From an uncultured Dehalococcoidia bacterium (GTDB taxonomy: Bacteria > Chloroflexota > Dehalococcoidia > Lucifugimonadales > G958296245): a DNA stretch of 64,000 nt. Under the pieces are notes generated by a model. The model did not search any database, had not been told where the DNA came from, and was given only the letters and a program-made list of their open reading frames with translations. Positions 3,671 through 10,364 of the stretch are shown here, piece by piece. Each line of letters opens with the position of its first letter. Positions within the stretch are counted from its first letter, which is position 1. The position numbers and the translations under genes were made by a program. The stretch lies in NCBI GenBank assembly GCA_958296245.1, contig OY282458.1, forward strand, positions 2,422,197 to 2,486,196, given 5' to 3'.

Positions 3671-3699
3671 TTGCCGAGGACCGGCCCCCTTGCTATGAT
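3671..3699 (+). promoter_or_regulatory. Promoter of tRNA-Ser
   Basis: TTGCCG, 17-base spacer, TATGAT with an extended TGC in front of the -10. It is placed 28 bases before the tRNA 5' end. Confidence 0.6.
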
Positions 3700-8944: not shown

Positions 8945-9607
8945 ATGAATAACATCAACTCGATCGTCTCGACGCTGGCGGCGCGGGTGTACTGGCGCCG
9001 CGTGGGCTACTCAGCCTCACTCGGCCTCCTGGGCGCCGCCGTAGGCGCCGCTGCAATACTCGTCAATCTCCTGTCCCGGACCCCGGTCTACCTCGAAGCG
9101 GAGCACGTACGGACGACGCCGCACGTGCTTGCAGCCGCTGCTGGGGCTGTCGACGGTCTGATCATAGCCTCGGCCGCCGCCTACGTCATCCACGGCGACA
9201 GATTCTCCGCTGCCATGCGTCGGGCGCTGCCCCTCTGGTGGTGGATCGCCCTCGGTTTCGGCTTCGGCATAATGCACTCCCTCGCCGCCGGCGGGTTCTT
9301 TCTCCCTGCCGCCGAGCTTGCGTACGCCGCCTATCTTAGGCTGCTAACCCCTCTGGAGACCTTGAACGCCTCCCTCGATCTGCTCCTTTTGACTCCCTGG
9401 AGGGCGTTCACTTCCGGCGCCGCCTTCCTATTCACAGGCATTATTGCCGGGCTGACATTCGGGGCGTGCGCCCTGCTGGTGGATATGGCGAGTGTCTCCG
9501 GCAGGCGTCCGGCAACCAGGGCGTGGAGCGCTTCGGCGGCGTTGAGCGCGGCGGTTGTGGCCGCTGCCGCCTTCGGTCCGCCGGCGTTGCTAGCAAGGCT
9601 CGGGTAA
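8945..9607 (+). CDS. Hypothetical multi-pass membrane protein
   Basis: About 220 residues, rich in Ala, Leu and Gly, with four to six predicted membrane segments: near 18-40 (SLGLLGAAVGAAAILVNLL), 58-78, 93-112 (LWWWIALGFGFGIMHSL), 113-135, 160-185 and 200-220. I recognise no family. ATG 8945 (MNNINSIV) is chosen because the residues encoded upstream are not membrane-like and have the composition of non-coding frame. A structured RNA and terminator follow about 85 bases downstream. Confidence 0.6.
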   Translation: MNNINSIVSTLAARVYWRRVGYSASLGLLGAAVGAAAILVNLLSRTPVYLEAEHVRTTPHVLAAAAGAVDGLIIASAAAYVIHGDRFSAAMRRALPLWWWIALGFGFGIMHSLAAGGFFLPAAELAYAAYLRLLTPLETLNASLDLLLLTPWRAFTSGAAFLFTGIIAGLTFGACALLVDMASVSGRRPATRAWSASAALSAAVVAAAAFGPPALLARLG

Positions 9608-9652
9608 TCGACGGCGCGTCCGTCAGCGCGGGGTCCTGTTCCACAGGATATT

Positions 9653-9690
9653 GCATACTGGTTGACAGTATGCACATCATGTGGTACAAA
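9653..9690 (+). promoter_or_regulatory. Consensus promoter overlapped by a perfect inverted repeat
   Basis: TTGACA (9662-9667), 17-base spacer, TACAAA (9685-9690). The inverted repeat GCATACTG-gttga-CAGTATGC (9653-9673) is perfect over eight base pairs and covers the -35 box, as a repressor operator would. No protein-coding start follows within 200 bases, so the promoter appears to serve the RNA at 9693-9799. Confidence 0.6.
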
Positions 9691-9692
9691 TT

Positions 9693-9799
9693 GGGAGCCA
9701 GTGCTGAAGGATTGACGCTTTCCCCCGAAACTGGAAGTTTAACGGCATTGGCTCTCCCAAAAGTGGACCCCCCGGCGAGCTGAGTGCCGGGGGGTTCCG
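9693..9799 (+). ncRNA. Candidate small structured RNA
   Basis: Directly after the promoter at 9662-9690 comes a sequence able to fold into one long stem: GGGAGCCAGTGC (9693-9704) pairs with GCATTGGCTCTCCC (9745-9758), twelve pairs with one two-base bulge and one G-U. This is followed by a separate GC-rich terminator hairpin at 9767-9795 and a T-rich tail. The transcript would be about 100 bases. No open reading frame of note lies inside. It lacks the GGAA-tetraloop and asymmetric-loop pattern of small SRP RNA and does not match a riboswitch I know. It could instead act as a leader of the DUF1801 gene at 9912, but the terminator argues for a free RNA. Confidence 0.5.
9767..9799 (+). terminator. 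Rho-independent terminator
   Basis: The perfect stem ACCCCCCGGC/GCCGGGGGGT (9767-9776 and 9786-9795) with a nine-base loop is followed by TCCGCTTTT. Confidence 0.7.
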
Positions 9800-9911
9800 C
9801 TTTTCCGGCCGGATGACGGCGAACGCGCGTGTATGATTGAATGGCCTCCGGCTGCCTTTACGCCTGCGGGCAAGCCGGGGCGCGGCAATCGTGTCGGAAG
9901 GAGATATTGTG

Positions 9912-10364
9912 ATGGCCTACAGCAAGGCTGCGACAGTCGAGGAGTACCTAGATGAACTGCCCGCCGACCGGAGTCAGGTCGTGGAAGCCGTGCGGAGGGT
10001 CATCTTGGACAGCCTCCCTGAAGGCTACGAAGAGACTATGCAGTTCGGCATGATCAACTACGTCGTCCCGCTGGGAAGGTACCCGGAGACGTACAACGGC
10101 CAGGCGCTGAGCTACGCCGCGCTGGCGTCTCAGAAGAACTACGTCTCCGTATACCTGATGAACATCTACGGCGACGCCGATACGGAGCGGTGGTTCACCG
10201 AGCGCTACAAGGCCAGTGGGAAAAGGCTCGACATGGGCAAGTCCTGCGTCCGCTTTAGGAAACTCGACGACCTTCCCCTCGACCTGATCGCGGAGGCCGT
10301 CGCCCTGACGAGCTTGGAGGACTTCATAGAGTACTACGAGGCGAGCCGAGCCAAACCACGTTAG
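9912..10364 (+). CDS. DUF1801 (YdhG-like) domain protein
   Basis: Small cytosolic protein of 150 residues with the DUF1801 pattern: TVEEYLDELPADRSQVVEAVRRVI at the start, then the central EETMQFGMINYVVPLGRYPETYNGQALSYAALASQK and SCVRFRKLDDLPLDLI near the end. The biochemical role of this family is not established. ATG 9912 has GGAAGGAG eight bases upstream, clearly better than the in-frame codons from 9837. Its last four bases overlap the stop of the convergent REC-DUF3052 gene. Confidence 0.85.
   Translation: MAYSKAATVEEYLDELPADRSQVVEAVRRVILDSLPEGYEETMQFGMINYVVPLGRYPETYNGQALSYAALASQKNYVSVYLMNIYGDADTERWFTERYKASGKRLDMGKSCVRFRKLDDLPLDLIAEAVALTSLEDFIEYYEASRAKPR

Follow-up and report, generated by a model that had tools for sequence, protein, structure and literature searches.

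The window, i.e., the whole 64-kb stretch of DNA analyzed here, comes from an uncultured Dehalococcoidia-type bacterium of the Chloroflexota and contains a gap of 304 nt between an upstream membrane-protein gene, whose stop lies at 9607, and a DUF1801 gene beginning at 9912. Within this gap, a promoter whose -35 box is overlain by a palindrome is followed by a long hairpin and then a strong terminator; together they make up an element found only once in the genome. The predicted small RNA and the DUF1801 gene lie on the same strand, with 108 nt separating the terminator from the start of the gene; a moderate promoter match at 9813–9842 (score 9.5, ninth on the + strand) falls between the two and could be the gene's own promoter. 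The first-pass annotation had seen no open reading frame of note between promoter and terminator, and indeed there is only a 37-codon frame (MHIMWYKLGASAEGL..., 9670–9783) running across the small RNA; it has no Shine-Dalgarno sequence, shows no convincing similarity among the comparison loci and is probably a chance occurrence.

Two further observations concern the surroundings. A homologue of the upstream membrane protein in another genome (G022, L045 954–2181) has no Pfam match and has directly downstream a gene that, from the look of its sequence, resembles Fur-family regulators, hinting at a metal-related role. Elsewhere in the window, three consecutive hairpins at 595–690 (z -6.1), one of which reads TCTGAGGG-TGT-CCCTCAGA on the - strand with TATAAT immediately after it, constitute a second structured intergenic element, possibly another RNA or a control region.

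The promoter and the palindrome over its -35 box

The promoter consists of a -35 box TTGACA (9662–9667, + strand) and an extended -10 element TGG-TACAAA (9682–9690, + strand), in which TACAAA occupies 9685–9690, directly preceded by TGG and separated from TTGACA by 17 bases. The TTGACA/TACAAA pair with this spacing had been proposed from reading the sequence, and it is borne out by a promoter matrix trained on 18 tRNA promoters of the same genome: the candidate scores 14.8 and ranks first of the 63,969 + strand positions in the window. The same matrix also finds the tRNA promoter at 3671, which had been left out of the training. A generic promoter scan overlooked the candidate because it requires a T at the last position of the -10 element, which here is A (T in 18/18 of the tRNA promoters used). 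The match to the tRNA promoters supports placing the predicted promoter in the genome's own, sigma-70-type class. Thus, in keeping with an independent intergenic small RNA, the element has a promoter of its own, with the top score on the + strand and a counterpart kept in the homologue described below.

The -35 box is covered by a perfect palindrome, TGCATACTG-GTTGA-CAGTATGCA (9652–9674). A perfect inverted repeat had been recognized here as 8+8; it is in fact 9+9, with five bases between the arms. Shuffling the 304-nt gap gives a perfect 9+9 repeat with a loop of 3–10 in 0.95% of cases, and shuffling the flanks gives one centered on the -35 box in 0.01%; hence, a chance origin of the palindrome where it sits is very unlikely. 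No second copy was found in the genome with two mismatches allowed, and its sequence is not kept in the homologue, where the corresponding position has no more than a dyad that is short or slipped (AGTGC/GCACT, CATATA/TATATG); about 10% of shuffles contain one of that size. The palindrome is a candidate operator, and control of the promoter by a local repressor acting through it is possible, though unproven. The pattern TGCATACTG-N5-CAGTATGCA also occurs in three IMG/VR phage contigs (L184–L186), one of which has two copies; they take the form of AT-rich hairpins, and a T run follows two of them. We set these matches in AT-rich phage contigs aside as unrelated, as they look like hairpins before a T run or occur without this promoter.

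The predicted RNA and its fold

From the promoter, the RNA is predicted to start at G9697, seven positions after the -10 element; at the corresponding position the homologue also has a G, with a C after it. A long stem had been noted between 9693–9704 and 9745–9758. The stem is real, but its limits are now drawn at 9693–9706 (GGGAGCCAGTGCTG) with 9743–9756, and in this full form it has a z-score of -4.94. In the window it begins 4 bp ahead of the predicted start, whereas those upstream bases are unpaired in the homologue. As the part from +1 pairs in both sequences (each with a GC start), the transcribed stem is, in the folding models, most likely formed by GCCAGUGCUG (9697–9706) with CGGCAUUGGC (9743–9752), and the RNA most likely extends about 108 nt from G9697 (9697–9804, + strand). 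The 107-nt RNA from G9697 has a z-score of -6.5, its fold being far more stable than those of shuffled sequences; in raw folding energy, 91 of 1881 windows match or beat the hairpin.

Above the basal stem, a second short helix pairs GGAUU (9709–9713) with AGUUU (9736–9740), and the apical part of the hairpin carries a C-rich segment, CUUUCCCCC (9718–9726), which is a candidate seed for pairing with Shine-Dalgarno sequences. The hairpin is followed by a CU-rich linker, UCUCCCAAAA (9753–9762), in which UCUCCC is predicted to be unpaired and provides a second candidate seed. The intrinsic terminator (9760–9803) has arms at 9767–9776 and 9786–9795, extended by AAAAGUGG and CCGCUUUU, and a loop GAGCUGAGU. 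By arm length it is the strongest in the window, in agreement with its earlier description as a strong terminator. An independent small RNA should also end at a terminator of its own, and this one is kept in the homologue together with GCUGAG in its loop, which is common to both.

A homologue outside the element's own family

We searched for relatives of the element at several levels of sensitivity. Neither the window element nor its homologue matches any Rfam family above the gathering cut-off, and the matches below it were taken as chance; the identification of the element as 6S RNA (no RF00013 match in the genome at E ≤ 1) or as the small SRP RNA (RF00169; the genome's SRP RNA lies elsewhere, at C1:2653572–2653672) was likewise discarded. 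In a whole-genome Rfam scan the SRP RNA and 45 tRNA matches were found and 6S RNA was not recognized. BLAST with the element against phages, plasmids and 59 genomes of the order gave nothing usable, a weak match in one genome (G007) lying inside a dienelactone-hydrolase-like gene. The genomes compared belong to other families, the element's own family not being represented among them. With strict settings, a single-sequence covariance model recovered only the window itself from 250 genomes of the order and 393 of the class. With lax filters on 40 genomes, the same model yielded a match at G002:C20:4578-4698 (L189; 23.6 bits, E 0.09). Other matches were rejected as lying inside a coding gene (L069), as comprising the terminator alone (G006/L190) or, in the case of an 18-base match in a viral contig, as falling in what looks like coding DNA; the promoter pattern has two matches in viral contigs. 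The neighborhoods of the DUF1801 and upstream genes in about 40 relatives contained no further member.

An E-value of 0.09 is by itself not convincing, and the significance of the match depends on features beyond the model. The G002 locus (L189/L191), from a genome of the same order but a different family, carries two that the model did not contain: a TTGACA box spaced exactly 17 bp from TACAAA, and TGG in front of the latter. The two loci thus share TTGACA-17-TGGTACAAA, the basal stem, the C-rich apical loop, the CU-rich linker and the terminator. Aligned locally, they score 57, whereas 2000 shuffles reach 31 at most and the best of 14,092 chunks of other DNA reaches 43; for the transcribed part alone the score is 38 and the shuffle maximum 32. 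We take the G002 locus to be a true homologue.

The first-pass annotation had proposed covariance and Rfam searches and a comparison of relatives for compensatory changes in the stem. The former gave no Rfam family and a single homologue through the lax search; the latter did bring such changes to light, between the window and this one homologue. All 20 pairs tested (10 in the basal stem and 10 in the terminator) are kept in both sequences, with double-sided changes in three and single-sided changes in five. In slid controls 30–55% of the cells still pair (about 44–55% with a slide of one column), and 60 of 500 shuffles reach the observed level of covariation, two sequences giving this control little power. 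The inner helix, aligned by eye, reads GAUU/AGUU in the window and GAUG/CAUC in the homologue. The apical C-rich segment (CUUUCCCCC in the window) is CCCCUUCCCCUCC in the homologue, and the linker UCUCCC corresponds to UCCUCC, which is the core of the anti-Shine-Dalgarno sequence. The structure expected of an independent small RNA is therefore conserved, in one homologue only. That homologue sits in a different neighborhood, with a tRNA-Met gene downstream on the other strand and, on the other side, a divergent gene that seems thioredoxin-like, and for this reason the element does not appear to be the leader of a particular gene.

An independent small RNA and its likely mode of action

Together, these observations favor, with somewhat better than even confidence, the reading of 9662–9804 as an independent gene for a predicted small RNA of about 108 nt, whose C-rich loop and CU-rich linker would pair with Shine-Dalgarno sequences in trans. 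It is probably a real and so far unnamed RNA, with two members known. The first-pass annotation had described an independent, repressible RNA of about 100 bases: its independence is supported by the promoter, the strong terminator and the homologue in an unrelated neighborhood, but repressibility is not established, the palindrome being single and the dyad in the homologue weak.

In the proposed mechanism, transcription from the sigma-70-type promoter would begin at about G9697. The resulting RNA would form a long imperfect hairpin, C-rich in its apical segment, and end in a strong terminator hairpin, with the short CU-rich linker left unpaired between the two. Translation of target mRNAs would then be lowered as the C-rich loop and the linker (predicted pairing segments UUUCCCCC and UCUCCC) pair with the Shine-Dalgarno sequences of these mRNAs. 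The mean unpaired probability over the CU run is 0.86 and 0.83 in the RNAs with the UCUCCC and UCCUCC linkers, respectively; C-rich segments arise also in GC-rich DNA with strong terminators.

The closest analogy is with LhrC of Listeria monocytogenes, an RNA made up of a stem-loop, a single-stranded stretch and a terminator, which blocks the Shine-Dalgarno sequence of its target. Its first loop and its single-stranded stretch carry CU-rich motifs (CUCCC), a third such motif lies in the terminator loop, and it is present in five copies and induced through LisRK (PMC4132741). The window RNA resembles LhrC in its loop, with CUUUCCCCC, and in its single-stranded stretch, with CUCUCCCAAAA; in contrast, its terminator loop GAGCUGAGU lacks a CU-rich motif, and there is one copy, in a member of the Chloroflexota. 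The likeness is one of layout, with no sequence homology claimed, and because the terminator-loop motif is missing we do not classify the RNA as LhrC but suggest only that it works like it. By this analogy, it most likely acts in trans by masking Shine-Dalgarno sequences. In Rhizobiales, the trans-encoded small RNAs SmelA075 and SmelA099 have three or four hairpins, each presenting a perfect anti-Shine-Dalgarno motif CCUCCUCCC in its loop (PMC3927594). The window RNA resembles them in having an anti-Shine-Dalgarno-type segment in a hairpin loop but differs in having one such loop plus a linker, with imperfect motifs.

An independent small RNA could instead act on a protein, as a 6S-like binder of RNA polymerase or a sponge for an RNA-binding protein. 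The long, nearly straight hairpin would suit such a role, as would the fact that Rfam recognizes no 6S RNA in this genome. Nevertheless, 6S RNA is about 185 nt long with a large bubble at its center, as opposed to the small internal loops and about 108 nt seen here, and the conserved accessible CU-rich segments favor base pairing; we therefore regard action on a protein as unlikely. Slightly less probable still is a role as the 5' leader (attenuator or riboswitch) of the DUF1801 gene, with the promoter at 9662 driving the gene and the hairpin deciding whether the terminator forms. The shared strand, the short distance of 108 nt and the presence of only a moderate promoter match in between (9813, score 9.5) are compatible with this, and the order of promoter, structured RNA, terminator and gene is that of terminator-type leaders and attenuators in general. 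Against it, no switch is apparent in the form of mutually exclusive pairing between the hairpin and the terminator, and the homologue has no co-oriented gene directly downstream, being followed by the opposite-strand tRNA and then an unrelated gene. Moreover, no leader conserved upstream of DUF1801 genes was found in relatives, where the genes examined lack a strong terminator close upstream (in a single case there is one 248 nt away).

The structure might also belong to the membrane-protein gene ending at 9607 as its 3' untranslated region and terminator, the promoter-like match being incidental; in favor of this, no strong terminator of that gene precedes 9767. This we consider improbable, given that the promoter is the best on its strand and keeps its exact spacing in the homologue, that the structure is missing downstream of the upstream gene's relatives (a strong terminator follows just one of them) and that no such gene adjoins the element in the homologue's genome. 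A functionless chance assembly of GC-rich hairpins and a promoter-like match is the least credible option: stable hairpins are common in GC-rich DNA, as the 91 windows that fold at least as well by raw energy attest, but the z-scores, the promoter rank and, above all, a homologue with promoter, stem, loop and terminator kept speak against it.

Returning to the independent RNA that pairs in trans, we offer as a tentative and rather doubtful extension that it represents an unnamed trans-acting family in at least two families of this order of uncultured Dehalococcoidia, which silences many genes by masking their Shine-Dalgarno sequences and is itself under a repressor of its own at the -35 box. 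For SAR202 and Dehalococcoides, a literature search on small RNAs turned up no paper; thus, little seems to be known of post-transcriptional control in these uncultured Chloroflexota. For searches of this kind, single-sequence covariance models with lax filters can uncover RNAs overlooked by BLAST and by strict settings. For the biology of the order, an RNA kept together with its promoter across families offers a defined locus, along with a covariance model and two candidate seed segments, from which such control may be approached.
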